Below the pieces are notes generated by a model, which saw only the letters and a program-made list of their open reading frames with translations, was not told where the DNA came from and did no database searches. The translations under genes were made by a program, and so were the position numbers. A stretch of 59,227 nt of DNA from an uncultured delta proteobacterium (GTDB taxonomy: Bacteria; Desulfobacterota; Desulfovibrionia; Desulfovibrionales; Desulfovibrionaceae): positions 1 to 59,227 of the forward strand of contig CAIMRY010000042.1 of assembly GCA_903843965.1 (NCBI GenBank), given 5' to 3'. Positions 2,532-59,227 of this stretch are shown here, in pieces (position 1 is the first letter of the stretch; every line of letters starts with the position of its first letter).

Positions 2532-5243
2532 GTGAAGGAACTCTTGCCTCTGCTGCCCCGCCCCAGCCGCTACCTCGGCAACGAGTGGGGAACCGTGCGC
2601 AAGGACCCGGCCACCCTGCGCGTGCGCGTGGCCCTGGCCTTCCCGGACCTCTACGAGGTCGGCATGAGCTACCTGGGACAGAAGATCCTGACCCAGGCCG
2701 TGAACGAGCGCGCGGGCATGCAGGCCGAGCGCGTGTACGCCCCCTGCATGGACACCGCCGCCATCCTGCGCGAGCACAATGCGCCGCTGTGCACCATGGA
2801 GACCGACACCCCGCTGGCCCGGATGGACGCCGTGGCCTTCAGCCTGACCCACGAGTTGTGCTACACCAACATCCTGTACATGCTCGACCTGGCGCAGATT
2901 CCGCTGCACGCCTCGGAAAGACTTGACGCCAAGGAAGATGGCGGCGCATGGCCGCTCATCATGGCTGGCGGCGGGGCCTGCTTCGATCCCGAGCCCATCG
3001 CCGCGTTCATGGACCTCATGGTCCTGGGCGACGGCGAGGTGGTGCTGCCGGAAATTTTGGACCGCGTGGCCCAGGCCCGCGAGGCGGGAACGCCCAAAGC
3101 CGAGCTGCTGCGCCAGCTTACCGCCCTGCCCGGCGTGTATGTGCCGAGCCTGTTCGCGTGGTCCAGGCCAGGCACGCCCATGCGCCCGCTGCTGCCGGGG
3201 TATGAGCGCGTGGAAAAGGCCCTGGTGCCCGACATCGCGCTCGCGCCCTTCCCCACCTCCCCGGCTGTGCCCTTTGGCCAGGCCATCCACGACCGCTACA
3301 CCTTGGAGCTGGCGCGCGGCTGCACGCGCGGCTGCCGCTTCTGCCACGCGGGCATGGTCTACCGCCCGGTGCGCGAGAAGAGCCCGGAACAGCTGGACGC
3401 CCAGTTGATCGAGGCCATCAGCGCCACGGGGTTCGAGGAAGTGTCCATGCTCTCGCTGTCCACGGGCGACTACTCGGCCCTGGAGTCGCTGTTCGAGACC
3501 ACCTTTTCCCGCTGCGCGGCGGAGCAGGTCACCATCTCCCTGCCATCCCTGCGCGTGGGCTCCCTGTCCGAGCGCATCATGGGCCGCATGGCCAGCATCC
3601 GCCGCACCGGGGTCACCCTCGCGCCAGAGGCGGGCAGCCAGCGCCTGCGCGACGTCATCAACAAGGGCGTGACCGAAGAAGCGCTCATCGAGCACGTGCG
3701 CATCCTCTTTGAGCACGGCTGGCAGCAGGTGAAGCTCTATTTCATGATCGGCCTGCCCACCGAGACCGACGCGGACCTGGACGCCATTGCCGAGCTTTGC
3801 GTCAAGGTGCGCGACGCCGCCGGACGCCATGTCAAGCGCCTGCAGGTCACGGCCGCGGTGTCGCCTTTTGTGCCCAAGACGCACACGCCCTTCCAGTGGG
3901 AGGGCCAGATCGGCATGGACGAGATACGCCGCCGCATCTACCGCATCAAGGACGCGCTCAAGGGCGTCAAGCGCATCACCCTGAAGTACCACCAGCCCGA
4001 GATGAGCCACCTCGAAGGCGTGTTTGCGCGCGGGGACCGCCGCCTCGGCCCGGTCATCGAGAGCGCCTTTCGCAAGGGCGCGCTGTTCTCCAGCTGGCGC
4101 GACCATCTGCGGCTGGAGCCGTACCTGGAGGCGCTGACCGAGCACGGGCTCACTGCGGAGGAGTTCCAGGCCCCGCGCGACGTGAACGCGCCCCTGCCCT
4201 GGGACCACCTGGACTGCGGCGTGTCCAAGGCCTTTCTGCTGACCGAGCGCAGCCGCGCCCTGGACGCCAAACTCACCGAGGACTGCCGCTACGGGGCCTG
4301 CCGCAACTGCGGGGTGTGCGGGCACGAGGGCCGCGTGTCGCGCCTGTCAAAACAAGCCAAGAAGCAGGCCGGTGGGCTGGCGGAAGCTGGCGGGGACGAC
4401 ATCCGCCCGCGCCTGGTCTTTGCCCAGCGCGACCAGGAAGAGGCCGCGCCCGCCCAGCCGGACAACCGGAACAACACGCCGGAAGAGATCCAGGCGGCAG
4501 AGGTCAAGGCCGTTGAAGCCGCCGCCGAAACCGCAGCAGCCACCGTTGCAGACAATGCGGCCAGGGCCGCAGCCGGTGCGGCCACCAAGCTGCACCTGTC
4601 CGAGCGCCAGGCCCAGTACCGCATCTGGTACGAGAAGCTGAACGAGGCCGCGTATCTGAGCCAACTGGAATTGCAGAGCATTCTGGAGCGCGCCCTGCGG
4701 CGCACCCGCTTCCCGCTGTCCTTCAGCGCCGGGTTCCACCCCATGCCGCGCATCTCCTTTGGCCGCGCGCTGCCGGTTGGCGTGGAGAGCATGGCCGAGT
4801 GGTTCACCCTGACCCTGCGCGAGAACCTGTCCCCGGAGTTCGTGCTCGACACCCTGGCCGCGCAGATGCCCAATGGCCTGACGCCCATCCGCATCGAGCC
4901 CATGGGCCTGCTGGAGCGCACGAAGCAGGCCGTGCGCGAGAAGTTTCTGGTGCGCTACAGCGGCGGGGCCGAGGACAACGCCCGCTGGCTGGGCCACTGG
5001 GCCGAGCTGCTGACGAAGGAGAGCCACGTGGTGGAGCGCAAAAGCAAGAACGGGCCCAAGCCCACGGACGTGCGCGCCCTGTTGGCCGAGGTGAGCCCGG
5101 AAGGCCAAAACGCCGTGCGCCTAACCTTTGACTGGTCGCGCGAGTACATGAGCCCGGTGAACCTGGTGCACGCGGTGAACGCGCCCATCTCGCCCCTGGC
5201 CGCGCACCTGGTCAAGGTCGGGCAGGAGTTTCCGGCGGGCTGA
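2532..5243 (+). CDS. TIGR03960-family B12-binding radical SAM protein fused to DUF2344
   Basis: 903 residues from GTG, with AAGGAG ideally spaced. The first about 230 residues resemble the cobalamin-binding-like domain of this family. The radical SAM core carries the 4Fe-4S motif C264-x3-C268-x2-C271 (CTRGCRFC). A Cys group near residue 584 (CRYGACRNCGVCG) may bind a second cluster. An Ala/Glu-rich linker (about 640-685) leads to a C-terminal DUF2344/TIGR03936 domain beginning near residue 686, which in other bacteria can be a separate protein. The family often lies near ribosome or RNase E/G genes, which suggests RNA or protein modification, but I know of no established reaction. Fusion of the two parts is normal for many members. 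Confidence 0.9.
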   Translation: MKELLPLLPRPSRYLGNEWGTVRKDPATLRVRVALAFPDLYEVGMSYLGQKILTQAVNERAGMQAERVYAPCMDTAAILREHNAPLCTMETDTPLARMDAVAFSLTHELCYTNILYMLDLAQIPLHASERLDAKEDGGAWPLIMAGGGACFDPEPIAAFMDLMVLGDGEVVLPEILDRVAQAREAGTPKAELLRQLTALPGVYVPSLFAWSRPGTPMRPLLPGYERVEKALVPDIALAPFPTSPAVPFGQAIHDRYTLELARGCTRGCRFCHAGMVYRPVREKSPEQLDAQLIEAISATGFEEVSMLSLSTGDYSALESLFETTFSRCAAEQVTISLPSLRVGSLSERIMGRMASIRRTGVTLAPEAGSQRLRDVINKGVTEEALIEHVRILFEHGWQQVKLYFMIGLPTETDADLDAIAELCVKVRDAAGRHVKRLQVTAAVSPFVPKTHTPFQWEGQIGMDEIRRRIYRIKDALKGVKRITLKYHQPEMSHLEGVFARGDRRLGPVIESAFRKGALFSSWRDHLRLEPYLEALTEHGLTAEEFQAPRDVNAPLPWDHLDCGVSKAFLLTERSRALDAKLTEDCRYGACRNCGVCGHEGRVSRLSKQAKKQAGGLAEAGGDDIRPRLVFAQRDQEEAAPAQPDNRNNTPEEIQAAEVKAVEAAAETAAATVADNAARAAAGAATKLHLSERQAQYRIWYEKLNEAAYLSQLELQSILERALRRTRFPLSFSAGFHPMPRISFGRALPVGVESMAEWFTLTLRENLSPEFVLDTLAAQMPNGLTPIRIEPMGLLERTKQAVREKFLVRYSGGAEDNARWLGHWAELLTKESHVVERKSKNGPKPTDVRALLAEVSPEGQNAVRLTFDWSREYMSPVNLVHAVNAPISPLAAHLVKVGQEFPAG

Positions 5244-5265
5244 GTCCTCTTCTCCTCAAGGATGA

Positions 5266-6357
5266 TCAGGGCACCGGAACGGTCGTGTATGGCCGTGTCG
5301 GATCGGGCTTCAGCGTGCCCTTGCCCGGAAAAATCGCGTCGTACTGCAGGTTGTCCCCCGGCTCGCTGAAATACCCGTCCGCCACGGCCTCGGGCCTGCC
5401 CAGCCGCAGCAGCTCGCCCACGGTCACCAGCTCATAGCCGCGCCTCTGCAGGCCGCTGAGCACCCGCGTGAGCACCTCGAAGGTCTTCTCCGGCACGGCG
5501 TTGGCGTGCATCAGTACGATGGACCCCGGCCGGATGAGCGCCAAGTCGGTGCGCGCAATGCTCGCCGGGGAATGCACCTCCTCGTCGCGCTCCCCCTCCA
5601 CATCCCACTGGATGGCCGGATACCCGGACTGCGCCAGCTCCTCAAGCGCCAGCGCCGAGCTGCGGCCATAGGGCAGGCGCATGAAGGGCAGCGCACGCGG
5701 CACCTGGGCCATCTGCGCGCCCAGGCCGCGCTGTTCGGCCCGGCGGGCCAGCTCCTGGCGCAAGAGCGCGTACTGGACCTGGGTCGGCTGCATCTGGGCG
5801 CGTATCTCGGCTGCGTCCATGAGCGCCAGGTTGCCGTGGGTCCAGGTGTGGCTGCCCAGCTCGAAGCGCAGGTCGGCCATGAGCTGCATGGCCTTTTCCG
5901 GGTGCGAGCGCATCCACTTGCCGCCCGCGAAGAACGTGGCCTTGACCCCGCGCGCGCGCAGCAGGTTGATGATCCGGTTGTCGTACCCGGCCACGTTGTT
6001 GGCGCGCTCGCAGAGGTCGAAGGTCAGGGCCGCCACCTTGCGGCCACCCCGGACATGAATCCGGCGGATGACCCCGCGCAATTCGGGCGGCACCGGCGGC
6101 AGGGTGAGCGAGGCGAGCAGGTCCGGCGACAGGTCTGCCGGAAAATCTGGCGGCAGGGAGAGGTCAGGGGCAGTCACCGGCCCGATGACGCGGTCGGCCT
6201 CGGTACCGACAAGCTCGGCGGGCGTCCAGAGGCCGTGGAGCAGCGCGGCGGAGCCGAAGCCCGGGCCGGGTTCCGCAGCGCTGCCAAGGCCTGCGGGCAG
6301 CGCCACGCACAGCAAAAGGAGCAGGAGAAGCTTCCGGGCAAGGGCGGGCGTCTTCAT
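5266..6357 (-). CDS. exported polysaccharide deacetylase (NodB-type, TFDLCE variant)
   Basis: 363 residues from the ATG at 6357, chosen because a signal peptide follows at once (MKTPALARK, then seven Leu, ending near ALPAGLGSAAE) and AGGAG lies 9 bases upstream; longer in-frame starts add an unlikely N-terminus. The NodB domain covers about residues 125-340. Motif 1 is TFDLCE rather than the usual TFDDG, motif 2 is HTWTH (metal-binding His pair), motif 3 is RLPYG, and IVLMHAN is the final His motif. The TFDLCE form is known in a subgroup of exported deacetylases. It probably removes acetyl groups from a cell-wall or capsular polysaccharide in the periplasm; the substrate is unknown. Confidence 0.85.
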   Translation of the reverse strand: MKTPALARKLLLLLLLCVALPAGLGSAAEPGPGFGSAALLHGLWTPAELVGTEADRVIGPVTAPDLSLPPDFPADLSPDLLASLTLPPVPPELRGVIRRIHVRGGRKVAALTFDLCERANNVAGYDNRIINLLRARGVKATFFAGGKWMRSHPEKAMQLMADLRFELGSHTWTHGNLALMDAAEIRAQMQPTQVQYALLRQELARRAEQRGLGAQMAQVPRALPFMRLPYGRSSALALEELAQSGYPAIQWDVEGERDEEVHSPASIARTDLALIRPGSIVLMHANAVPEKTFEVLTRVLSGLQRRGYELVTVGELLRLGRPEAVADGYFSEPGDNLQYDAIFPGKGTLKPDPTRPYTTVPVP

Positions 6358-10443: not shown

Positions 10444-12426
10444 ATGATCAAGCGAGTTCCGCGCAGCCGCGAGGGTGCGCCGACCAGATCAAAGACGGAC
10501 ACCGGCAAGCTCAAGCTCTTGCTGGTGGGCCTGTTTTTCGCCGCGATCTGGCTGACTCTCTGGGGCCGGGCGGCCTACGTGCAGCTCTACCTCGGGCCGG
10601 AGCTCAAGAAGGGGGCCGAGAAGCAGAGCCTGGCCACCGGGTTTGAACTGGGCGAGCGGGGCCGCATCTACGACAGGAACGGGGCCATATTGGCCACCAG
10701 CGTGGAGAGCAAGTCCGTGTACATCTCGCCCATCAAGGTCGAACGCGCGGCCCAAACCGCCCAGACCCTGTCCCAGATTCTGGATGTTCCCAAAAAGGAC
10801 ATTGAGCGCGATCTGGCCTCGAAGATGGGCTTCGTCTGGATCAAGCGCCAGATAGGCGACCGCGAGGCCAAGGCCCTGGAGGCCGCGAAGCTGCCGGGCG
10901 TGTTTTTGACCAGCGAGTACCGCCGCATGTTCCCCAACCACCAATCCGCCGGGCAGGTGCTCGGCTTTGTCGGCGTGGACGGCATCGGGCTGGAGGGCCT
11001 GGAGAAGCATTTCGAGGAGCGCATGGTGGGCCGCCAGGCCAAGTACGTGGTCCAGCGCGACGCCACCGGGCGCAGGCTGTACCTGGACGACCAGGGCCGC
11101 GAGATGGACATCCGCGGGGCCGACGTGCGCCTGACGCTGGACACCGTGATCCAGGACGCCGCCGAGCAGTCCCTGGCCGAGGCCGTGACCCGCTACAACG
11201 GCCGCTCCGGCATGGCCCTGGTGGTCAAGGTGGACAGCGGCGAGATACTGGCCCTGGCCCACTTCCCCTTCCTGAACCCCAACGCCGCCAACCTGTCCAA
11301 GCCCGCCGCCCGCCGCAACCGCGCCGCGCTCGACATGTTCGAGCCGGGCTCCACCCTGAAGCCCTTTGTCTTTGCCGCCGCCCTGGAGCAGAAGGTCATC
11401 GACCCAAGCAAGATCTTCGACTGCGAAAACGGCAAGTGGGTGCTGCGCGGCAAGACCATCCGCGACACCCACCCCTACCACTGGCTCTCGGCCAACCGCA
11501 TCCTGCGCTACTCCAGCAACATCGGAACGGCCAAGATCGGCCTGGCCCTGGGCGCGCAGAACTATTACAGCACCCTGCGCAAGCTGGGCTTTGGCGAGCG
11601 CACCGACCTGGACATCCCCGGCGAGTCTCCGGGCAAGCTGCGCCCGCCCAAGGAATGGAGCGAGATCGACCTGGCCTCCATCTCCTTTGGCCAGGGCATC
11701 GGCGTCACCGCCCTGCAAATGGCCCGGGCCTACCTGGTCCTGGCCAACATGGGGGCGCCCAAACCGCTCAAGCTGGTGCTTGAGCCGGAATCCCCGCCCC
11801 CGCCCCAGGCCGAGCGCGTGTTCAGCCCCGGCACCGCCGAGACCGTGCTCTCCATGATGCGCGAAGTGGTGGACGAGGACGGCACCGGCAAGCTGGCGCG
11901 CATTCCCGGAATGGTGGTGGCGGGCAAGACCGGCACTGCGCAGAAGGCCGGCGCCGTGGGCAAGGGCTACGGCGACGGCATCGTGGCCTCCTTCGTGGGC
12001 CTGTTTCCCGGCGACAAGCCAGAGTACCTGATCATGGTCTTCGTGGACGAGCCCTCGCCCGTGGACCTGGGCGGCGTGGTCTGCGCGCCCGCCGTGCGCG
12101 AAATCGCCATCAAGACCCTGTCGTACTACAACCGCCTGCCCGAGGCCAAGCTGCTGACCCAGCCCGAGCCCTCGGAGTCGTCCATGCAGGAAAAGGCCAC
12201 CCGCGCGCCCCAGGCCGCAGCTGGGGCCGCCGTGCCCGACCTCACCGGCCTGCCCGTGCGCCGGGCCCTGGAGGCCCTGGGTAAGCGCGGCATCGTGCCC
12301 ACCATCAAGGGTGCGGGCATGGTCATAGGGCGCCAGAAACCCCTGCCAGGCGAGCCCTGGCCTGAAACCAAAAGCGGCAGCAAGGATGGCGGCTTCATCC
12401 TCTGGCTGCAGGAAGGGTCGAAATAA
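10444..12426 (+). CDS. ftsI: penicillin-binding protein FtsI (PBP3) with C-terminal PASTA domain
   Basis: 660 residues. A membrane anchor lies near residues 22-42, followed by the PBP dimer domain and the transpeptidase domain with all three motifs: S303-T-L-K306, S357-S-N359 and K495-T-G-T. A PASTA domain occupies about residues 594-650 (VPDLTGLPVRRALEAL), an addition found in several deltaproteobacterial FtsI proteins and in Gram-positives. It cross-links septal peptidoglycan with FtsW. The TAA stop shares a base with the ATG of murE. Confidence 0.96.
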   Translation: MIKRVPRSREGAPTRSKTDTGKLKLLLVGLFFAAIWLTLWGRAAYVQLYLGPELKKGAEKQSLATGFELGERGRIYDRNGAILATSVESKSVYISPIKVERAAQTAQTLSQILDVPKKDIERDLASKMGFVWIKRQIGDREAKALEAAKLPGVFLTSEYRRMFPNHQSAGQVLGFVGVDGIGLEGLEKHFEERMVGRQAKYVVQRDATGRRLYLDDQGREMDIRGADVRLTLDTVIQDAAEQSLAEAVTRYNGRSGMALVVKVDSGEILALAHFPFLNPNAANLSKPAARRNRAALDMFEPGSTLKPFVFAAALEQKVIDPSKIFDCENGKWVLRGKTIRDTHPYHWLSANRILRYSSNIGTAKIGLALGAQNYYSTLRKLGFGERTDLDIPGESPGKLRPPKEWSEIDLASISFGQGIGVTALQMARAYLVLANMGAPKPLKLVLEPESPPPPQAERVFSPGTAETVLSMMREVVDEDGTGKLARIPGMVVAGKTGTAQKAGAVGKGYGDGIVASFVGLFPGDKPEYLIMVFVDEPSPVDLGGVVCAPAVREIAIKTLSYYNRLPEAKLLTQPEPSESSMQEKATRAPQAAAGAAVPDLTGLPVRRALEALGKRGIVPTIKGAGMVIGRQKPLPGEPWPETKSGSKDGGFILWLQEGSK

Positions 12427-13937
12427 TGCCCGCCGCAAGCAAGGCACGCTGGAACGAGCTGCTGGCCCTGGTGGGCCGCGGCCTCATGGTCCGCACGGAC
12501 TCGCGCGAGGTGCGCCCCGGCGAGGTCTTTGTCCTGATGCCCACGGCCGGGGCCCGCAGCGAGGCCTTCCTGGCCCAGGCCCTGGCCAATGGCGCGGCCT
12601 GGATCGTGGCCGGACCGGGCGTGGCCTTGCCCCAGGGGCCGTCGCACGAGCCGTCGCAAGAGCCGGGGGCCAGGCTCATGGCCGTGCCCGACGCAGCCGA
12701 CGCACTGGGGCAGCTGGCCGCCAAATATTTCCGCACCCACAGGCAGGCCATGCAGGTGGTGGCCGTCACCGGCACCAACGGCAAGACCACCATCACCTAT
12801 CTGCTGGAGGGGCTGCTCGCCGCCGCAGGCCGCAAGGTCGGCGCGCTGGGCACTGTGAGCTACCGCTGGCCCGGCGCCTGCATCGAGGCCAGCCTGACCA
12901 CGCCCGGCTGCTGGCGCCTGCACGAGCTGTTCGCCCGGATGTCCGCCGACGGGGTCGACACCGTGGTCATGGAGACCAGCTCCCACGCCCTGCACCAGAA
13001 GCGCGTGGCCGGGCTGGAGTTCGACGCAGCCGTGCTCATCAACCTGACCCAGGACCACCTGGACTACCACGGCGGCTTCGAGGACTACTACCAGGCCAAG
13101 AAGCTTTTGTTCACCAGCTATCCGTGCGCGGACAAGTTCAAGGCCGCCAACGCCGACGACCCCTACGGCCTGCGCCTGCTCTCCGAGCTGCCCGACGCCG
13201 TGGGCTTCACCCTGGCTAACGCCGCCGCCCCGGCAGGCAACCGCATGCTGTGCGGGACCATGACCGCCTGCACCGGCAAGGGCGTGTCCCTGCGCATGGA
13301 GTTCGAGGGCAAGTGCTGGACGCTCGACTCCGGGCTGGTGGGCGCGCACAACGCCTCCAACCTCATGGCCGCGCAGGCCGTGGGCCTGGGCCTGGGCCTG
13401 AACCCCGGCGACATGCAGGCGCTCTCGCCCTTCACCGGCGTGCCCGGCCGCCTGGAGCGCGTGCCAAACGACCACGGCCTGGACATCTTCGTGGACTACG
13501 CCCACACCCCGGACGCGCTCAAAAACGTGCTGCGCGCCCTGCGCGCCCTGGACTTTTCCCGCGTGCTGACCGTGTTCGGCTGCGGCGGCGACCGCGACCG
13601 CACCAAGCGCCCGCTCATGGGCCAGGCCGTGGCCGCGCTTTCGGACGTGGCCATCCTGACCAGCGACAACCCGCGCCACGAGGACCCGCTCGGCATCATG
13701 GCCGATGTGCGCCCCGGCCTGCACAACGGCCTTGCCGCCGGCACCACGAACCTTACGATCATCGAAGAGCCGGACCGCTACACGGCCCTGCGCCTGGCCA
13801 TTTCCCAGCTGCGCCCCGGCGACGTCCTGCTCGTGGCGGGCAAAGGCCACGAGAGCTATCAGCAGATCGGCGATGTGAAGCACCCATTTTCCGATGTCGA
13901 GGCCGTGGGCCGCGCCATCCGCGAGGTCAGGGCATGA
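12426..13937 (+). CDS. murE: UDP-MurNAc-tripeptide synthetase MurE (meso-DAP adding)
   Basis: 503 residues. The ATP loop is GTNGKTT (from residue 116) and the amino-acid specificity motif D414-N-P-R is the one that marks meso-diaminopimelate ligases, so this organism should have DAP-type peptidoglycan. Three Mur ligase domains are present. A 12-bp duplication at 12639-12662 adds SHEPSQEP in the N-terminal domain. The stop overlaps an ATG at 13934 exactly where murF would be expected to begin. Confidence 0.97.
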   Translation: MPAASKARWNELLALVGRGLMVRTDSREVRPGEVFVLMPTAGARSEAFLAQALANGAAWIVAGPGVALPQGPSHEPSQEPGARLMAVPDAADALGQLAAKYFRTHRQAMQVVAVTGTNGKTTITYLLEGLLAAAGRKVGALGTVSYRWPGACIEASLTTPGCWRLHELFARMSADGVDTVVMETSSHALHQKRVAGLEFDAAVLINLTQDHLDYHGGFEDYYQAKKLLFTSYPCADKFKAANADDPYGLRLLSELPDAVGFTLANAAAPAGNRMLCGTMTACTGKGVSLRMEFEGKCWTLDSGLVGAHNASNLMAAQAVGLGLGLNPGDMQALSPFTGVPGRLERVPNDHGLDIFVDYAHTPDALKNVLRALRALDFSRVLTVFGCGGDRDRTKRPLMGQAVAALSDVAILTSDNPRHEDPLGIMADVRPGLHNGLAAGTTNLTIIEEPDRYTALRLAISQLRPGDVLLVAGKGHESYQQIGDVKHPFSDVEAVGRAIREVRA

Positions 13938-14065
13938 ACAGGACCCAAGGCGCCGACGCGCGTTGCCCGGCCCCGGCACAGCCCTGCGTCCAGATGCGCC
14001 TGGCCGGGCTTTGGCCAGCGCGCACGACCCATGACCCTGACACCGCGAAAGGAGGCCGCGCTTGA
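13934..14065 (+). pseudogene. 43-codon ORF in the place of murF; possible deletion scar
   Basis: In related bacteria murF stands between murE and mraY. Here the ATG overlaps the murE stop (ATGA), as a coupled murF start would, but the frame ends after 43 codons, inside the mraY start. The peptide has two Cys and many Pro and shows no Mur ligase motif, so it is probably not functional as MurF. The end of the ORF carries the AAAGGAGG ribosome binding site for mraY. I interpret it as the scar of a murF deletion; it could also be a neutral leader ORF. Confidence 0.5.
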
Positions 14066-15138
14066 TCTATCATCTGCTCTACCCGCTTGCGGCCAAATTC
14101 TCACCGTTCAACGTCCTGCGCTACATCACCTTCCGCAGCGTGTACGCGCTGTTGACCGCGCTGGTGATCTCCATCCTCCTAGGACCCAGGCTCATCGAGT
14201 GGCTGAAGGCCCTGCGCTGCCGCCAGCACATCCTGGAGGAGGTGGCCTGCCACCAGGCCAAGGAAGGCACCCCGACCATGGGCGGCCTGCTCATCGCCGT
14301 GTCGCTGGTCACCAGCGTGCTGCTCTGGGGCGATTTGACCAACGTCTACATCTGGCTCACGCTGTTCGTCTTTGTGGGCTTCGGCTTCGTGGGCTTCCGC
14401 GACGACTACATCAAGGTGGTCAAGAAGCAGAACAAGGGCATCTCGCCGAAGGCCAAGCTGGCCGGGCAGATCTTTGTGGCCGGGTCGGCCATTGCGTTCC
14501 TGATCTTCCAGCCGGCCTACTCCACGCAGCTGGCCGTGCCCTTTTTCAAGCACATCCACCCGGACCTGGGCCTGTTCTACCTGCCCTTCGCCGTGCTTGT
14601 GCTGGTGGGCTCCAGCAACTCCGTGAACCTCACCGACGGGCTGGACGGACTGGCCATAGGCCCCACGGTGGTGGCTGCGGCCTGCTTCGCCATCTTCATC
14701 TACGCCGCAGGCAATGCGGTGATTTCCCAGTACCTGAACATCACGCCCGTGCCCGGCGTGGGCGAGGTCACGGTGTTCTGCGGGGCGCTGGTGGGCGCGG
14801 GCCTGGGCTTCCTCTGGTTCAACGCCTACCCGGCCCAGGTGTTCATGGGCGACGTCGGTTCTCTCTCGTTGGGTGGAACGCTCGGGTTCATCGCCGTTTT
14901 GGCCAAGCAGGAGCTGGTGCTGACCCTGGTCGGCGGGGTGTTCGTGTTCGAAACCCTTTCGGTGATCCTGCAGGTGGGCTACTTCAAGATGAGCGGCGGC
15001 AAGCGCTTTTTCCGCATGGCCCCGCTGCACCACCACTTCGAGCTCAAGGGCATCCCCGAGTCCAAGATCATCATCCGGTTCTGGATCCTTTCCATTCTCA
15101 TGGCCCTCATGGCCTTGAGCACCCTGAAGCTGCGCTAG
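14062..15138 (+). CDS. mraY: phospho-MurNAc-pentapeptide translocase MraY
   Basis: 358 residues beginning at TTG, chosen because AAAGGAGG lies 6-8 bases upstream. About ten membrane helices are visible, with the conserved cytoplasmic motifs TDGLDGLA and HHHFE. The enzyme transfers phospho-MurNAc-pentapeptide from UDP to undecaprenyl phosphate to form lipid I, so it needs the product of MurF, whose gene is missing just upstream. Confidence 0.97.
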
Positions 15139-49126: not shown

Positions 49127-51739
49127 ATGGGCCGATTGACGCAGACCCTCGCGCGCATCGGACAAAGGCTTTTCGCTCCGGGGGAGGCCCTGCGCCTGCG
49201 CTACGAGGCCTTCAAGGCCCTGCTGGCGGCGGACGAGAAGAGCCTGCTCCTGGTGGCCGAGCTGGAGGAGATCTTTGCCGGGGCGCGCCAGGTGGACCCG
49301 GCCAGGACGCGCTGGCTGTGCGGCCAGCTGTCCGGGGCCGTGGGCGAGGTGGTGGCGCGGCTGCTGGCCATGCGTCCCGGCGGACACGCTGGCCTGGCCG
49401 AGGCCCTGGCCAAGGTCCGCGCCGGGCTGGCCCAGCTGCTCCCGCCGCCAATGTCCATTGGCCCTGCCCAGCCCGAGGCGACGCCCCCCGGCCCCTTTGT
49501 GCTGCCCCTGGCCCAGGCCCTGGGCAGGCCCGAGGCCGCCGGGGGCAAGGCCGCCAACCTGGCCGCCGCGCACAGGGCCGGGCTCCGCGTGCCGCCGGGC
49601 CTGTTCGTCAGCACGGACGCCTTCCGGCATCTGCTGGCCTGCGGGAGCCTGCGGCCCCGCCTGGACCGCCTGCTGCGCCAGGTGGACCTTGCGCGGCCCG
49701 AGCGCATCGGTCCGTTGTGCGCCGGGCTGCAGGCCCTGGTGCTCGGGACCGCCGTGCCGGACGACCTGGCCCAGGCCCTGCGCGAGGCTGCGGCCAGCCC
49801 GGAGTTGGGCGGGGCGCGGCTGGCCGTGCGCAGCTCCGCCGTGGCCGAGGACGGGGTTTTCTCCTTTGCCGGGCAGTACGTGAGCGAGCTCAATGTCGAG
49901 CCCGCAGACATCGTGGACGCATACCGCCGCGTTGTGGCGGCCAAATATCGGCCCAGGGCCGTGACCTACCGCGTGCGCTGCGGCCTGCCCGACGAATCCG
50001 CGCCCATGGCCGTGCTCCTGCTGCCCATGATCGACGCCGTGGCCGCCGGGGTGCTGCACACCAGCGACAGCCGCGCTAGACAGCCCCAAAACCAGCCCCT
50101 GGGCCAGCCCGAAAAATGCCTGTCCGTCTATGCCCTGCCCGGCCTGGGCGACGCTCTGGTCTCCGGCGGGGCCCAGCCCCGCGTGGTGCGGCTGGCCCGG
50201 CGGCTGCCCGCGCAGATCCTGGAGCAGTCCGGCCCGGCGGACGTGCAGCTCGGCCTTTCCGCCCTGTCCGAACTCCTGCTGACCGGCCTGGTGCTGGAGT
50301 CCGTCTTTGGCCGCCCCCAGGAGGTGGAGTGGGCCCTGGACCGCGCGGACCGCATCTTTGTTCTGCAATCCCGCGCGTACAGCGAGACGTCAGAGCAGTC
50401 GGCCGGGCAGGAAGTGGTCTGGCCCGACGGATTGGGCGGACAGGGCGGGCTGGGCGGGCCGGGCGCAGCGGGCGAAACGGCTGGGGCTGGCGCGCTGCCG
50501 CTGGCCCAGGGCCTGGACCTCGTGGCTCCTGGCGTGGGCTGCGGGCCGGTCTTTCACCTCAAGGACGCGGCGGATGTTTTCCGCGTGCCCGCCGGGTGCG
50601 TGCTGGCCGTGGACAGCCTGACCCCGGCCCTGGCCCGTTGCGCCGACCGGGTTGCTGCGGTGGCCGCGCGCCTGGGCAGCCGGGCCAGCCACTTCGCCTC
50701 GGTGGCGCGGGAGTCCGGCCTGCCTGTGGTCTCCGGCCTGGCGCAGGGCCGCGCGCAGCTGCCCGAGGGCCTGCTCGTCACCGTGGACGCGGGCGCAGGA
50801 ACAATCCTCGCCGGGTGCGCGGAGGCCCTGCTGGACGGCCCCCGGCGCAGGCAGACAGAGGAGCGCCAGCGCCTGGCCGAGCGCTTTGCGGCCCTGGCCC
50901 GGCAGACCTGCCACCTCTCGCTCACCAACCCCGAGGCCCCGGAGTTCGCCCCTGGGGGCTGCCTCTCGCTGCACGACCTGGTGCGCTACTGCCATGAAAA
51001 GGCCGTGGCCGAGATGGTCGGGCCCGTGGAGACCGGGGGCCCGGACACGCCAGGCCGGGGCCTGGGCCAGACCCGGCGGCTCGCCACGGACCTGCCGCTG
51101 GCGCTCTACCTGCTGGACCTGGGCGGCGGGCTGGAGATCCCGGCCAAGACCGGTCGCCAAGACGATATCCGGGCCGATATCCGGACAGATATCCGGGCAG
51201 ACGCCATCGCCAGCGCGCCCATGCAGGCCCTGTGGCAGGGGCTGGCCTGCGCGGGCGAGGTCTGGCACGACCGGGGCTTCTGCTGCGACTGGCACGAGTT
51301 CGACCGCATCAGCGCCGGAATCTTCCGCAAGGACTCCCGCCTGCTGGCCAGCTACGCCCTCGTCTCCGCCGACTACCTGCACCTTCTGGTGCGCTTCGGC
51401 TATCACTTCGCCGTGCTGGACAGCCTGTGCGGCCCAAGGCCGGAGGCCAACTACGTCCACTTCCGCTTCAAGGGCGGCGGCGGCCTGCCGGAGCAGCGGC
51501 TGCTGCGCATCGGGTTCCTGTCCCGGGTGCTTTCCGGCAGCGGCTTTGTCCTGCGGGTCCGGGGCGACATGCTCGACGCCCGCCTGGCCCGGGCCGAGGC
51601 GGCGGAGGTCCGGCGCGTGCTGGTCCTGCTGGGCCGCCTGCTGGTGCGCACCCAGCGCATGGACATGGGCCTGGCCGACGAGGCCCAGGCCGAGGCCCTG
51701 GCCCAGGAATTTCTGGCCGTCTGCGGGGCTGCGTCGTGA
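49127..51739 (+). CDS. PEP-synthase-like phosphotransferase with unknown C-terminal domain
   Basis: 870 residues. After about 130 helical residues comes the ATP-grasp nucleotide domain of the PPDK/PEP synthase family (GGKAANLAAAHRAGL, RVPPGLFVST, AVRSSAVAEDG). The swivelling domain has the phospho-His H522 in SRASHFASVARESGLPVVSG. The TIM barrel that binds pyruvate or PEP is missing; instead about 290 unrecognised residues follow, so the phosphate acceptor is probably not pyruvate. A 12-bp unit repeated three times (51164-51199) gives DIRADIRTDIRA. The stop overlaps the phosphatase start. Confidence 0.85.
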   Translation: MGRLTQTLARIGQRLFAPGEALRLRYEAFKALLAADEKSLLLVAELEEIFAGARQVDPARTRWLCGQLSGAVGEVVARLLAMRPGGHAGLAEALAKVRAGLAQLLPPPMSIGPAQPEATPPGPFVLPLAQALGRPEAAGGKAANLAAAHRAGLRVPPGLFVSTDAFRHLLACGSLRPRLDRLLRQVDLARPERIGPLCAGLQALVLGTAVPDDLAQALREAAASPELGGARLAVRSSAVAEDGVFSFAGQYVSELNVEPADIVDAYRRVVAAKYRPRAVTYRVRCGLPDESAPMAVLLLPMIDAVAAGVLHTSDSRARQPQNQPLGQPEKCLSVYALPGLGDALVSGGAQPRVVRLARRLPAQILEQSGPADVQLGLSALSELLLTGLVLESVFGRPQEVEWALDRADRIFVLQSRAYSETSEQSAGQEVVWPDGLGGQGGLGGPGAAGETAGAGALPLAQGLDLVAPGVGCGPVFHLKDAADVFRVPAGCVLAVDSLTPALARCADRVAAVAARLGSRASHFASVARESGLPVVSGLAQGRAQLPEGLLVTVDAGAGTILAGCAEALLDGPRRRQTEERQRLAERFAALARQTCHLSLTNPEAPEFAPGGCLSLHDLVRYCHEKAVAEMVGPVETGGPDTPGRGLGQTRRLATDLPLALYLLDLGGGLEIPAKTGRQDDIRADIRTDIRADAIASAPMQALWQGLACAGEVWHDRGFCCDWHEFDRISAGIFRKDSRLLASYALVSADYLHLLVRFGYHFAVLDSLCGPRPEANYVHFRFKGGGGLPEQRLLRIGFLSRVLSGSGFVLRVRGDMLDARLARAEAAEVRRVLVLLGRLLVRTQRMDMGLADEAQAEALAQEFLAVCGAAS
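51164..51199 (+). repeat. 12-bp tandem repeat in the phosphotransferase gene
   Basis: GATATCCGGGCC, GATATCCGGACA and GATATCCGGGCA follow directly and in frame. Confidence 0.9.
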
Positions 51740-54390: not shown

Positions 54391-55581
54391 TCATCTTTTA
54401 AGAATACGCGCCTCCAGCGGAACAGGATCTTCATGTGTGCTGGAGCCGTCAAATAACATCACAGCTTCAGTCAGCAAATCATCAAGCAACTGTGTAAAAG
54501 TTGTAAGGGTAGCGGCTTGCTCCCACAAGAAGAAGGCCAACGATCCAGGCGTCGGGTTGACTTCGTTCAACCAGACCTCATTGCTTTGCGCATCTGCAAT
54601 AAAATCAATGCGGGGCGCGCCTGTTCCGTCGACAACATCAAAAACCTGACATGCCCAACTCCGAATCTGTTGCTCAACGTGACTATCGATGGCTGGATTC
54701 ACTTCGCGGGTCAAAGAGATCATTCCTTGACTTGATGCTGTTTTGACACCGTTCTTTCCGTTTTCGGAAAGATATTTTTGCTTAAAATCGAGCAAGTCTG
54801 AATGTCGCAATGGTTTCTCAATGGCAGAGGTCACTATGCCTTCTGGACCATTTCTCACTGAAATGTTCAGCTCATACGCATTGTCAACAAAAGGCTCCAA
54901 AATTACCTTGTTATCATAGGTGAAGATACGTGGCAGAACAGCTATAAGCTCATCGATGTTCGAAATTCGCGACACGCCAATGCTGCTTCCCATATGAGCT
55001 GGTTTAATGCAGACAGGGAATTTGACAGCACTTTTAATTTGTTCAATCTCCCTAGACCTCAGAAGAAGACCCTCAATGGGCTTTTTGACTACGTGACAAC
55101 CCAAATGAGGCACGTTGATAGACTTCAAGAGTGATTTTGTAACGTCCTTGTCCATAAAAATGCTGCTCGCCATAGCTCTCATGCCAGCATAAGGGACACC
55201 TGCGGTTTCGAACACACCCTGGATGCTGCCGTCTTCACCAATCCGACCATGAAAGACCGGGAGCGCGATGTCTACTGTATAGTGTTTAGACGAACCGAAT
55301 ACTGATTTATGGACCGGGAATAATACTCCCTTATCCTTTGGGTCCAGGCTTAAACGTACCGGTGTGAGCTTTTTGCACATGGCCACATCTGGTATGTAGC
55401 AGCTTTTGTCAAACAATTGTTCGCCTACAAACCATGTCCCATCTCGACTGATGTATACAGGGAATGGATTATACTTGACGGTATCAATGGCGTGCAGCGC
55501 TTGCAAACCAGAAATAACGCTTATATCGTGCTCCGGAGATATTCCACCAAAGAACACTGCGACCCGTTTCTTGCTGCTCAT
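54391..55581 (-). CDS. ddl: D-alanine-D-alanine ligase of the island cassette
   Basis: 396 residues, AT-rich. The N-terminal motif VFFGGISPEHDIS carries the catalytic Glu (E17), FHGRIGEDGSIQG and SSIGVS follow, and NEVNPTPGSLAFFLWE ends the ATP-grasp core. The omega loop has Lys-Tyr (QKYLSE), the pair found in D-Ala-D-Ala rather than VanA-type D-Ala-D-Lac enzymes. It would supply D-Ala-D-Ala for the MurF-like ligase encoded just upstream. It is longer than E. coli DdlB (about 306 residues), nearer DdlA-type or Van-type sizes. Confidence 0.92.
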   Translation of the reverse strand: MSSKKRVAVFFGGISPEHDISVISGLQALHAIDTVKYNPFPVYISRDGTWFVGEQLFDKSCYIPDVAMCKKLTPVRLSLDPKDKGVLFPVHKSVFGSSKHYTVDIALPVFHGRIGEDGSIQGVFETAGVPYAGMRAMASSIFMDKDVTKSLLKSINVPHLGCHVVKKPIEGLLLRSREIEQIKSAVKFPVCIKPAHMGSSIGVSRISNIDELIAVLPRIFTYDNKVILEPFVDNAYELNISVRNGPEGIVTSAIEKPLRHSDLLDFKQKYLSENGKNGVKTASSQGMISLTREVNPAIDSHVEQQIRSWACQVFDVVDGTGAPRIDFIADAQSNEVWLNEVNPTPGSLAFFLWEQAATLTTFTQLLDDLLTEAVMLFDGSSTHEDPVPLEARILKR

Positions 55582-55776
55582 ACCTTTTACTCCCCACGGT
55601 ACTTAAATTTCTGAACCTAATGCGAAAATGTTGCGCAGGAAGAAAGGATGCGAGGACGACACGGCAGAAGACATATCGCCAGGAAAATACCCATAAAAAC
55701 TAATCCGATAAAAGCACAATCGAAACCAATATACTTTGACAATAAAAATTAGCACAATCCGAAAGCGAAAAGAACA

Positions 55777-57363
55777 TTACAAAATGAATTTTGACTCATA
55801 GATGTCTGGAAGATCATTTTCCAATAAAACTGCATCACCAAGCGTAACGTTTCTACTAATCCAGGCCTCTGCTTCCTTAAAAGTATTACAAAGTACAACA
55901 TCTTGCTCGGCGGAACGATTACCCTGAAAAGCTTCAATAAATGAGGGAATCCTGCGCGGGCAAACAGCAACCAAAATATCGACGTAATTTACTGAGAGCG
56001 CCCCCAACTGCGCGTGTTCTTCCACATGGGTTTGGCCAAGTTCAACAAGGCCTGGTGTAACTAATATTCGACGGCCCTTTCCATCCGCCATAACATGCAG
56101 CAACTCTAATGCAGAACGAAAGCCGATGGGGTTAGAGTTGTACGCGTCATCAATCAATACAACGCCTGGCGTGTATTGCTTTACCTCAAGTCTGTGCGCA
56201 ATCTGAGGCATACTTGTCAAGGCGTGAATGATGTCGACAGGATTATAGCCCAAAGAACAGGCTGCGCCAAAGGCAATGGCAGCATTCATCGCATGGTGAA
56301 GGCCGAATAGGGAGATATCAAAAGAGTAACGGTTCTTGCCATGCAACAATTCTATTGAAAGTCCTTTGAGCGATTGCGTGACATTCGAAAGCTGAATATC
56401 ACCTCGATCTACTCCGCATACTATTATCTTATCCTTGCAATCCCTTTCTAGCGATGAGAACGGAGGGAGACTCAGAACATCTTCTTGAGTTATAACAATC
56501 CCACCGGTCTTTAAAACAAAATCGACCAATTCATATTTGGCTTTTGCGACAGTATCTATAGATTTGAAACGCTCCAGATGTGCTGAACCAATGTTTGTAA
56601 CAATGGCAAGTTGAGGCGGAGTCAGTTTACAAATCCGCGCAATAGAACCAATGCCATAAGCCCCCATCTCAACGATGAAAAATTTATGCTTCCTTTCAAG
56701 TTTCGTTCTGATCACTCTAGAAATGCCCATTGCCGTATTAACGCTTCCGGGCGTAATCAATGTTGGGGAAAAACAATCGAGCACATGACCGAGAATATGC
56801 TTTACCGATGTTTTTCCATATGAACCCGTTATACCAACAATATGTGGCGAAAGGTTCTTTACTTTCTTAGAGGCTTCAGACCAAAATTTCTTTTGGATGC
56901 GAGACTCCAAAGGAATGAGGAGAGTGTTTCCGACAATAAGCAGCAAGGGCTGAACGTGAATCAGTGCCAATATAGCCAAAGTTGAAAAAGCCCGATATGT
57001 GACAAATATTCCAATTGAAAGTGACACAACGTACGAAATAAGCAGTATTCGTTTGACACGGTCGGTAATTGCAAGCTTCTTTTTCGCAGATACCCTTGGG
57101 TCTTTCTCGTGTATGGATACACCAAGAAGGATCACAGCGTATGCGCTGTATGGAGCGAAGTGGCTGCTCCTCAAGAAAAACAAGACACAAGCTGTAATCA
57201 CCACAAGCGATGTGCCGATCATGTCAATCACAAAGTGGTAGAGTATCCATTTGAAAAATCGGACATTGTCATATTCTTCTTGTTGAAAAATATGAATATA
57301 CGTCAGCGATCGTTTGAACATAAAGAAAAAGAATGCGGCAAGAAACACGATCTTCCAAATCAT
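55777..57363 (-). CDS. membrane-anchored MurF-like Mur ligase
   Basis: 528 residues from the ATG at 57363, which overlaps the hydrolase stop (ATGA). Four or five hydrophobic helices fill residues 1-152 (about 3-17, 38-65, 74-84, 105-125, 128-152). The Mur ligase middle domain then has its ATP loop ITGSYGKTS at 178-186 and a MurF-type stretch (EMGAYGIGSI, NIGSAHLERF). IDDAYNSNPIGF and TPGLVELG match MurF-specific motifs. The usual N-terminal UDP-MurNAc domain is absent. It probably joins D-Ala-D-Ala or a related unit to a peptide, perhaps on a membrane-bound substrate. Strongly AT-rich compared with the genome. Confidence 0.88.
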   Translation of the reverse strand: MIWKIVFLAAFFFFMFKRSLTYIHIFQQEEYDNVRFFKWILYHFVIDMIGTSLVVITACVLFFLRSSHFAPYSAYAVILLGVSIHEKDPRVSAKKKLAITDRVKRILLISYVVSLSIGIFVTYRAFSTLAILALIHVQPLLLIVGNTLLIPLESRIQKKFWSEASKKVKNLSPHIVGITGSYGKTSVKHILGHVLDCFSPTLITPGSVNTAMGISRVIRTKLERKHKFFIVEMGAYGIGSIARICKLTPPQLAIVTNIGSAHLERFKSIDTVAKAKYELVDFVLKTGGIVITQEDVLSLPPFSSLERDCKDKIIVCGVDRGDIQLSNVTQSLKGLSIELLHGKNRYSFDISLFGLHHAMNAAIAFGAACSLGYNPVDIIHALTSMPQIAHRLEVKQYTPGVVLIDDAYNSNPIGFRSALELLHVMADGKGRRILVTPGLVELGQTHVEEHAQLGALSVNYVDILVAVCPRRIPSFIEAFQGNRSAEQDVVLCNTFKEAEAWISRNVTLGDAVLLENDLPDIYESKFIL

Positions 57364-58142
57364 AGCGAACACTCTTTCATAAAATGCAACAGATGATGGC
57401 GAAGTTGGTGCATGCCATCCGACAGAATATCAACGTGGCCAAAATGAGGCAACCGGACAAGTGTTGCTCTTCGGAAGAGCTTTGAAAATGCATCGCCCAT
57501 TGAGACAGGCGTTTCGGTGTCCATTTCACCGTATACCAGGAACACAGGGCATTCCACTGTCTTGGCCACATCAGACAAGTCTTCTCTGATCACTGCTGAA
57601 AATATCGGACGCATGGGGCCAGCTGTCGCGTAATCACGGCTGCCAAAGTATGCTCCGAGCTTTTCACGAAGTGCTGTGGTCGGCACGATCCTTTTCAAAA
57701 GCTTGTACGTGAAGATCTTGCTTTTAATTTTTGCCGATCCAAGGATGCTTCTTTTAATCGGCAATCCTGCTGCACCGATCAGAAACAGCCCATCGATCAA
57801 TTCAGGGTAATGTGCGGCCAGTTGAATGCCTACTCTGCACCCAAAAGAATGCCCTACCCATACTCTTGACTGCTTTGGAACCGTTTGCAGCCAGCTGGCG
57901 ACATGATCAGCGTACTGGCGGGTTCCCCATACTGACGAAGGCATTGGACTGCTTCCAAAACCTGGGAAATCGAGCAATATATTTGAATATTTTCGCGAGA
58001 AAAAATCTGCCAAGGGAGCCAAAGCGCTGTGTGTATGCATCCATCCATGCCCCCACACCAGTTGCGTTGTGTTGTCACTTGAGGGAAGTCCAAGGGATCG
58101 ATAGGACAACGGATGTCCCATAGTGGAAACTTCGTTCATCAT
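57360..58142 (-). CDS. alpha/beta hydrolase of the island cassette
   Basis: 260 residues. The oxyanion region is WGHGWMHTHSA, the nucleophile elbow GHSFG holds the Ser, GEMDTETP gives the Asp and PHFGHVDIL the His, so the triad is intact. No signal peptide is present, so it is cytoplasmic. The substrate is unknown. It is the first gene after the promoter and is translationally coupled to the MurF-like gene, which suggests a role in the same pathway, for example removing or hydrolysing an ester-linked or peptide by-product. Confidence 0.85.
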   Translation of the reverse strand: MMNEVSTMGHPLSYRSLGLPSSDNTTQLVWGHGWMHTHSALAPLADFFSRKYSNILLDFPGFGSSPMPSSVWGTRQYADHVASWLQTVPKQSRVWVGHSFGCRVGIQLAAHYPELIDGLFLIGAAGLPIKRSILGSAKIKSKIFTYKLLKRIVPTTALREKLGAYFGSRDYATAGPMRPIFSAVIREDLSDVAKTVECPVFLVYGEMDTETPVSMGDAFSKLFRRATLVRLPHFGHVDILSDGMHQLRHHLLHFMKECSL

Positions 58143-58167
58143 CTCAGACCGTCAGCCCTAGCTGAGA
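58142..58167. promoter_or_regulatory. nested dyads at the cassette transcription start
   Basis: TCAGC-N4-GCTGA (58152-58165) lies inside the larger TCTCAG-N14-CTGAGA (58142-58167), between the -10 element and the hydrolase start codon. It is placed as an operator would be. Confidence 0.5.
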
Positions 58168-58168
58168 C

Positions 58169-58197
58169 ATTATATCCTCTTCTTTTCGGTGCATCAA
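58169..58197 (-). promoter_or_regulatory. strong sigma-70 type promoter of the cassette
   Basis: On the minus strand TTGATG (58192-58197) is followed after 17 bp by a perfect TATAAT (58169-58174). Transcription should start about 20 bases before the hydrolase ATG. Confidence 0.75.
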
Positions 58198-58833: not shown

Positions 58834-59227
58834 GTGACCCTACCCCGCCGAGTATACCAACCGTAAGTTTGGGCTCTGGCCGGTCTGGTTTTCCTCATTC
58901 ATGGCTCTTCCGTATTCCTCTGGGGCCAATCCGCCAAGCGATGTGTGGGGTCGGGCAGTGTTGTAGTCCTGCCGCCAGGTTTCGATGATGTCCCTGGCCT
59001 CGGCCATGGACCGGAACGCGTGGGCGTTCAGGCACTCCTCGCGGAACCGGCCGTTGAAGCTCTCCACATGCCCGTTCTCCATGGGCCTGCCGGGCCGGAT
59101 GAACTCCAGATGCACTCCGGCGTTGGACGCCTACTGGTCCAGGGCCTTGCCCGTGAACTCCGGCCCGTTGTCGCTGCGCAGGTGCTTCGGGCATTCGCCG
59201 CGCAGGCAAAGCTGCTCCAGCACCCGC
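58834..59227 (-). pseudogene. IS3-family transposase (OrfB) fragment with an in-frame stop
   Basis: On the minus strand the frame reads RSDNGPEF (second catalytic Asp), then GKALDQ, a TAG at 59131-59133 and ASNAGV, then GHVESFNGRFREECLN (catalytic Glu) and RPHTSLGGLAPEEY near the end. Relatives have Trp (TGG) where TAG stands, so one G-to-A change has inactivated it. The gene runs past the window end. TGACCCTACCCC near 58835 is probably the terminal inverted repeat. Confidence 0.85.

Follow-up and report, generated by a model that had tools for sequence, protein, structure and literature searches.

The 59,227-nucleotide contig CAIMRY010000042.1 of an uncultured delta proteobacterium (Desulfovibrionaceae), analyzed here in full and called the window below, carries a three-gene cassette that encodes an alpha/beta hydrolase, a membrane MurF-type ligase that we name murX, and a D-alanine-D-alanine (D-Ala-D-Ala) ligase (Ddl). 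There is a strong probability that this cassette arrived by horizontal transfer and took over the final cytoplasmic steps of stem-peptide synthesis, after which the native murF and ddl would have become dispensable and been lost. Both native genes are deleted from the genome, a natural double replacement, and the hydrolase-murX-ddl trio is a conserved module.

Results

Native murF and ddl are deleted from the host genome

The genome spans 3.56 Mb on 46 contigs, with a listed completeness of 100% and contamination of 0.06%. It holds a single strong match to the MurF model, which is murX itself at 211.8 bits; all others score at most 65.5 bits and fall on murE, murD and murC. The Ddl model likewise found one strong match, the cassette Ddl (225.6 bits), with the next at 45 bits. 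A normal murF and ddl in the same genome, which the original prediction had named, together with unchanged muropeptides on deletion, as evidence against itself, were not found by this profile search.

The loss of murF asserted in that prediction can be seen in the division and cell wall (dcw) cluster of the window, where murE is followed by mraY with only a 43-codon scar between them (Table 1). The scar starts at the murE stop as murF does in relatives, and its last codons (KGGRA) agree with those of the same-genus loci L022 and L040, which have an intact murF, as does a third same-genus locus, L030; about 1.3 kb of murF body is missing. The ddl deletion lies on contig C40, which matches the ddl neighborhood of the same-genus genome G002 on both flanks. 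Positions 5116-6042 of the G002 query, spanning nearly all of ddl (5063-6001), are absent there and 234 bases stand in their place; the region is otherwise collinear, save that about 1.8 kb is separately inserted farther upstream (query 3727-3804). We also weighed a gap in the assembly as an explanation for the two losses and dismissed it, since each deletion sits within a contig whose flanks match.

Searches covered 58 relatives. Every one of the 46 with a completeness of 90% or higher has a full-length ordinary murF (in G028 as two pieces of one frame) and a full-length ddl, and the order murE-murF-mraY is kept in 30 of 30 fetched loci. No murF match listed for the 58 relatives has the span of murX (approximately 58-403, in a frame of 500-600 amino acids), some partial matches at contig ends of incomplete genomes remaining untyped.

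The cassette and its surroundings

The three genes had been described as a minus-strand group of low G+C content with an ATGA coupling, and their coordinates and composition agree with this. The G+C content is 0.44-0.46 over 55-58 kb, while most of the rest of the window lies at 0.60-0.74 per kb; further low parts are the first kb (0.48) and 38-39 kb (0.56). The ATG of murX overlaps the hydrolase stop as ATGA, and a GTG at 57372 is a longer alternative start. We read murX from the ATG at 57363; the ATGA-type junction (gap of -1) is also the most frequent hydrolase/murX junction among relatives. A clear promoter had been claimed as well. The sigma-70-like site ahead of the hydrolase is indeed there and matches the consensus well, though by count alone such sites occur in the region at chance number (6 found, 6.7 expected), and the promoter counts as a consensus match only.

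Table 1. Features of the window discussed in the text, with the basis of each assignment.
Feature	Position	Strand	Basis or remark
Alpha/beta hydrolase, cassette gene 1	57360-58142	-	Pfam Abhydrolase_1, 1.7e-18
murX, membrane MurF-type ligase, 528 amino acids from ATG 57363	55777-57363	-	Mur ligase domains
Ddl (D-Ala-D-Ala ligase), 396 amino acids, cassette gene 3 (last)	54391-55581	-	Pfam Dala_Dala_lig N and C
Sigma-70-like promoter, TTGATG-17-TATAAT	58169-58197	-	10/12 consensus match, 26 nucleotides before hydrolase start
IS3-type transposase, C-terminal fragment	58840-59115	-	rve_3, 2e-29; NF033516 positions 303-368 of 369
murE, last gene before missing murF	12426-13937	+	Neighbor order
Native murF scar, 43 codons	13934-14065	+	ATG overlaps murE stop; then mraY
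mraY, first gene after missing murF	14062-15138	+	Neighbor order

The IS3 remnant noted in the original prediction is confirmed as the C-terminus of a transposase. It adjoins the cassette in the last stretch of the contig (58840-59227). Its frame is interrupted by a stop at 59131-59133 and truncated by the contig end, where the assembly probably broke at a repeated element. A long G+C-rich frame of 870 amino acids (49127-51739, plus strand), several kb ahead of the cassette, is by look alone taken to resemble a phosphoenolpyruvate-synthase-type protein.

Searches of Pfam, NCBIfam and PADLOC returned nothing above cut-off more specific than Mur ligase, Ddl and alpha/beta hydrolase, and the PADLOC defense-system models gave no family at E <= 0.001 for any of the three cassette proteins.

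The trio is a conserved module

An alignment of four murX proteins was used to scan 84,980 species genomes. We examined the best 80 loci, which together with L060, L065 and L066 make a set of 83, some of them cut by contig ends. The 577 relatives from the scan are not counted as carriers, since the search patterns may also fit ordinary MurF; counts rest on the best 80. In 70 of the 83 loci a same-strand hydrolase gene immediately precedes murX (71 with L066, where the two overlap by 71 bases under the chosen start), and Ddl is present in 66. The co-occurrence of the three genes over the 83 loci is far from the random pattern that the original prediction had put forward as grounds against itself. 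In the 61 complete trios the distance matrices of the three genes agree (Mantel r 0.91, 0.87 and 0.85, with none of 2000 permutations as high), an agreement that comes partly from shared species history.

Carriers of murX, judged by record title and including many metagenome-assembled genomes (MAGs), belong to more than 10 phyla. Their titles name Alphaproteobacteria, Cyanobacteria, Melainabacteria, Bacteroidota, Bacillota, Chloroflexota, Bdellovibrionota, Chlamydiota, Omnitrophota, Poribacteria, Balneolota and Rhodothermota. In several of them the trio is placed among wall and division genes. The clearest example is a Poribacteria MAG (G473; L092, L212) with the order rsmH-ftsI-murE-hydrolase-murX-ddl-mraY-murD-ftsW-murG, in which the trio occupies the murF slot. 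Four alphaproteobacterial loci (L072, L073, L074 and L117) have it flanked by murC or murB on one side and ftsA-ftsZ on the other, while murX of L068 abuts murB-murC. Elsewhere the trio adjoins murC-murB (L087, L096, L097, L136) or ftsW-murG (L100).

The murX loci without partners are L085, L103, L104, L105, L113, L129, L132 and L134. RNase HII neighbors murX in L134, and also in L119, which has the hydrolase; the neighbor in L103 is phosphoglycerate kinase. In the genomes of the partnerless carriers Balneola, Gracilimonas, Thiomargarita, Bacillales and Rhodothermus ordinary murF was not found either, and a further murX, this one with a Ddl, is present in the Bacillales carrier.

We built a tree by a quick method from 76 murX proteins (the window and 75 of the 83 loci), 30 ordinary MurF and 8 MurE, with a midpoint root that carries no information on age. 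The murX proteins form one group apart from the ordinary MurF (Shimodaira-Hasegawa-like approximate likelihood ratio test, 98). The murX of the window falls in a starred group of 11, whose titles are alphaproteobacterial except for one Acidobacteriaceae MAG and the window itself, and the window hydrolase and Ddl are also nearest to the alphaproteobacterial set. These affinities would fit acquisition from an alphaproteobacterium-like donor. In a plasmid collection no record covered 80% of murX, the best 40 of 111 rows matching the ligase core or little more, and a Streptomyces plasmid match has no annotated Ddl or hydrolase alongside. A collection of viral contigs gave one weak match, to the ligase core only. 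The whole trio was found in 2 of 26 phage-collection records, L065 (MT835658.1) and L066 (MT835503.1), both human faecal and titled "Bacteriophage sp."; the surrounding genes look bacterial, and both records seem to be chromosomal sequence deposited as phage.

Carriers of murX often lack ordinary murF

The 80 scan genomes were searched in two lots (50 and 30) at a cut-off of E <= 1e-35 for ordinary murF. It is absent from 30 of the first 50 and present in 20 (18 clear, 2 diverged); among the other 30 it is absent from 25 and present in 5, so that 55 of the 80 carriers lack it at this cut-off. To separate murF, MurE and murX, 13 stretches with a second match were compared with profiles. The second match was MurE in G486, G491, G492, G495, G566, G567, G568, G572, G577 and G586; in G574 the two genes of one stretch are MurE and the other stretch has an ordinary murF, already so counted; and in G580 it is a second murX with Ddl alongside (L249). 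The Bacillota MAGs G567 and G580 have two murX-type matches each.

Gene order within contigs was read at 30 mraY loci of the first lot. Of these, 11 have murE adjoining mraY without an intact murF, and in two of these (G457, G460) a worn murF remnant without a P-loop is left. The rest comprise the trio in the murF slot (1, G473), ordinary murF (3), diverged murF (2), a Bacillota murE-mraY order where murF may lie elsewhere, as it does in 3 (5), and uninformative loci (8). The worn copies lie at L203:5444-6436 (G457) and L205:4170-5168 (G460); far-diverged copies that keep the P-loop, in L197 (G479) and L196 (G471), are counted as having murF. These worn and diverged copies look as if murF decays after arrival of the cassette. 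By eye, alike frames of approximately 150 codons occupy the murE/mraY slot at L199:3440-3950, L201:3750-4330 and L202:5760-6250; these frames, in the alphaproteobacterial carriers G451, G455 and G456, end in a PGD stretch that recalls the end of MurF. They are perhaps a kept murF remnant with a new use.

Within the family of Blastochloris sulfoviridis (G452), murX and murF exclude each other. Among its 61 genomes, 57 have murF only (three partial), three have murX only (G452, G459, G543), none has both, and one has neither (G516, at E <= 1e-50). The chance that 3 of 3 carriers lack murF is about 1e-4 by hand arithmetic that ignores kinship. In G543 murE and mraY are adjacent on a 3.95-Mb contig that carries the trio elsewhere. 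The sole other trio carrier in a sample of 395 genomes of the phylum, G114 (listed at 6% contamination), also has murX, no ordinary murF, and adjacent murE and mraY. The original prediction had set in advance the test that presence of the cassette should correlate with loss of murF from the dcw cluster, and the correlation is as predicted, both here and in other lineages; the proposed replacement of murF is thus supported by the deletions in this genome, by dcw placement, by exclusivity in this family and by the carriers without murF.

These observations bear on the idea that murX serves another pathway, such as a peptide-bearing lipid or polymer, and that its carriers lost murF by coincidence, or only seem to have lost it through faulty assembly or binning. 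Some murX genes do stand beside unrelated genes, and most carriers are MAGs. Nevertheless, we regard this idea as very improbable, given murE-mraY junctions without intact murF inside single contigs (the 11 mraY loci, the window, G543 and G114), the trio in the murF slot of G473, and the exclusivity in the Blastochloris family.

The other genes of the pathway were counted in the first 50 carriers. Exactly one Ddl-type match (E <= 1e-35, at least 390 amino acids) is found in 43, more than one in 5 and none in 2; mraY is matched in 49, above cut-off in 47. G485 and G498, Bacilli carriers that keep murF, each have two strong mraY matches on different contigs, and these pairs might represent a second, parallel wall-precursor route.

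murX joins a MurF core to a membrane domain

The Pfam matches of murX are Mur_ligase_M and Mur_ligase_C only, with no match to a Mur N-terminal domain. In place of the usual MurF N-domain stand approximately 170 residues of mostly hydrophobic helices, helical in the model, and this hydrophobic domain is conserved, with invariant residues of its own. Against the MurF model TIGR01143 murX scores 211.8 bits, matching positions 65-400 of 1-418, and so reaches neither the cut-off of 288.6 nor full length; fold and profile matches confirm a MurF-type catalytic core. The T-G-S-x-G-K P-loop, K276, R391-L392 (in HRLE) and N411 (in YNSNP) are invariant among 76 aligned sequences, and N409 and P412 are kept in at least 90% of them. 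We assume for the P-loop, the catalytic lysine, HRLE and YNxNP the roles that these motifs have in Mur ligases, K276 presumably being the carbamylated lysine. A C-terminal ENDLPD motif in murX takes the place of what is apparently KGS in ordinary MurF.

Ddl is predicted to make D-Ala-D-Ala

Both domains of the cassette Ddl score above the Pfam cut-off. Aligned with the S. aureus D-Ala-D-Ala ligase 2i80, 61 of 61 cassette Ddls keep the GSS and K-Y residues, which we take to be Ser150 and Tyr216 in the numbering of E. coli DdlB. Ser150 and Tyr216 of DdlB are reported in PMC7691350 to be shared by Ddls whose sole product is D-Ala-D-Ala. The product of the cassette Ddl is therefore predicted to be D-Ala-D-Ala, since this serine and tyrosine are kept throughout. 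The Van ligase models among the best 25 of 35 families score far under their cut-offs, the highest being VanG with 179.8 of 495 bits.

Another reading, of which the modified stem peptide of the original prediction is one form, is that the cassette alters the stem end or provides a bypass insensitive to drugs (resistance to glycopeptides or D-cycloserine), and is kept for that purpose. Ordinary murF persists in 25 of the 80 carriers, several of them Bacillota, and mobile Ddl genes can confer D-cycloserine resistance (an excerpt of PMC7691350), both of which speak for such a role. The D-Ala-D-Ala-only residues and the low Van ligase scores speak against it, as does the lack of a Van gene in the trio (VanH, VanX and VanT were not searched for genome-wide). 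Nor would a resistance role account for the deletion of both native genes in this genome or for the absence of murF from many other hosts. We consider this explanation quite unlikely, and in this genome, where the Ddl residues are of the D-Ala-D-Ala-only type and the normal genes are gone, it is not supported. A modified-stem or resistance role is possible where hosts keep ordinary murF.

The hydrolase

The presumed catalytic triad of the hydrolase, S99, D208 and H236, is invariant in 62 aligned sequences, and its AlphaFold2 model has a predicted local distance difference test score (pLDDT) of 96. Its closest solved relatives are esterases and lipases, namely 4uhd, the membrane phospholipase A 6i8w and ABHD6. 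The hydrolase would act as part of the unit; that it is an editing esterase or peptidase acting on substrate or product is a doubtful suggestion.

Discussion

The mechanism that we propose begins with the cassette Ddl, which would join two D-alanines. murX, a MurF core carried on membrane helices, would then use ATP to attach the dipeptide to the stem tripeptide. We hold it very likely that murX does add D-Ala-D-Ala to the stem tripeptide, because its MurF core is the only MurF of the cell; the argument is genetic, from murX being the only candidate in this genome and from the 55 of 80 carriers without ordinary murF. With the cassette in place, native murF and ddl would no longer be needed, and their deletion would follow.

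The substrate of murX is a more tentative matter. The N-terminal domain of ordinary Mur ligases holds the uridine of UDP-MurNAc. Since murX lacks this domain, is seated in the membrane and has a precedent in MurT, we are inclined to think, with some hesitation, that its substrate may be a lipid-linked tripeptide (lipid I or II), which would place its step downstream of MraY instead of upstream. It is possible, if still more tentative, that carriers follow a second assembly order, in which lipid I and II are first built on the tripeptide by MraY and MurG, murX then adds D-Ala-D-Ala from the cassette Ddl to give the lipid-bound pentapeptide, and the hydrolase edits or recycles stems, while the module spreads between phyla and displaces murF and ddl.

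Several points weigh against the replacement that we propose and the mechanism attached to it. The evidence is confined to gene content, deletions, co-inheritance, dcw placement and predicted fold. Replacement is not universal, as ordinary murF is also present in 25 of 80 carriers (far diverged in two), and in 8 of 83 loci murX has neither hydrolase nor Ddl alongside, so that the trio is not always one unit. The carriers are mostly MAGs, taken without completeness figures and with contigs under 3 kb left out; single absences are accordingly weak, and synteny is weightier. Finally, a membrane-tethered murX could use UDP-MurNAc-tripeptide.

This last alternative accepts the same replacement, with murX merely tethered to the membrane, acting on the soluble precursor in the textbook pathway order. 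The catalytic core is plainly that of MurF, mraY is matched in nearly all carriers examined for it, and an unchanged substrate would presumably ease entry into a host whose MraY evolved with the pentapeptide. What such tethering leaves unexplained is the missing Mur N-domain match, a hydrophobic domain conserved with its own invariant residues, and the MurT precedent. We see it as a serious possibility that nonetheless falls short of probable.

The usual view of MurF is that of a soluble enzyme, conserved and essential, at which drugs can be aimed. If replacement by the cassette and a lipid-linked substrate are correct, the assumed order of wall assembly changes, and a large, separate, membrane-built lineage of MurF exists in many phyla. 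Genomes that seem to have no murF would be explained. Moreover, drugs directed at MurF or Ddl and tuned to the usual enzymes could miss the bacteria that carry the cassette.

Comparison with known systems places the cassette beside, and apart from, each of its nearest counterparts. murX shares the catalytic core of ordinary MurF, from which it differs in its score below cut-off, its lack of an N-domain match, its ENDLPD motif and its separate group in the tree. The cassette Ddl has both domains and the serine and tyrosine of ordinary D-Ala-D-Ala-only enzymes; at 396 amino acids, with the single Ddls of carriers at least 390, it is longer than the ordinary Ddl matches in relatives of the host, at approximately 295 codons. 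Glycopeptide-resistance clusters contain ddl- and murF-like genes, with a soluble MurF, D-Lac or D-Ser ligases, and VanH, VanX or VanT. The cassette resembles them in having a Ddl-class ligase beside a MurF homologue, and it differs in having no Van partner in the trio and another Ddl residue pattern.

A close parallel to the membrane ligase is MurT, of the MurT/GatD lipid II amidotransferase, likewise of the Mur type and, in its resolved structure, devoid of the uridine-binding N-domain. According to PMC6085368, MurT acts on lipid I/II but leaves UDP-linked precursors untouched, and the structure resolved for it comprises central and C-terminal Mur domains only. However, MurT amidates D-Glu together with GatD, whereas the partners of murX are an alpha/beta hydrolase and a Ddl; there is no GatD within the trio, the rest of the genome not having been searched for one, and the MurT match of murX is much weaker than its MurF match (66 against 239 bits). 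Among the papers listed in searches of the open-access full-text literature, none described a membrane MurF or the hydrolase-murX-ddl trio; subscription papers, preprints and supplements lay outside the scope of those searches. The cassette is best read as an overlooked alternative MurF/Ddl system.

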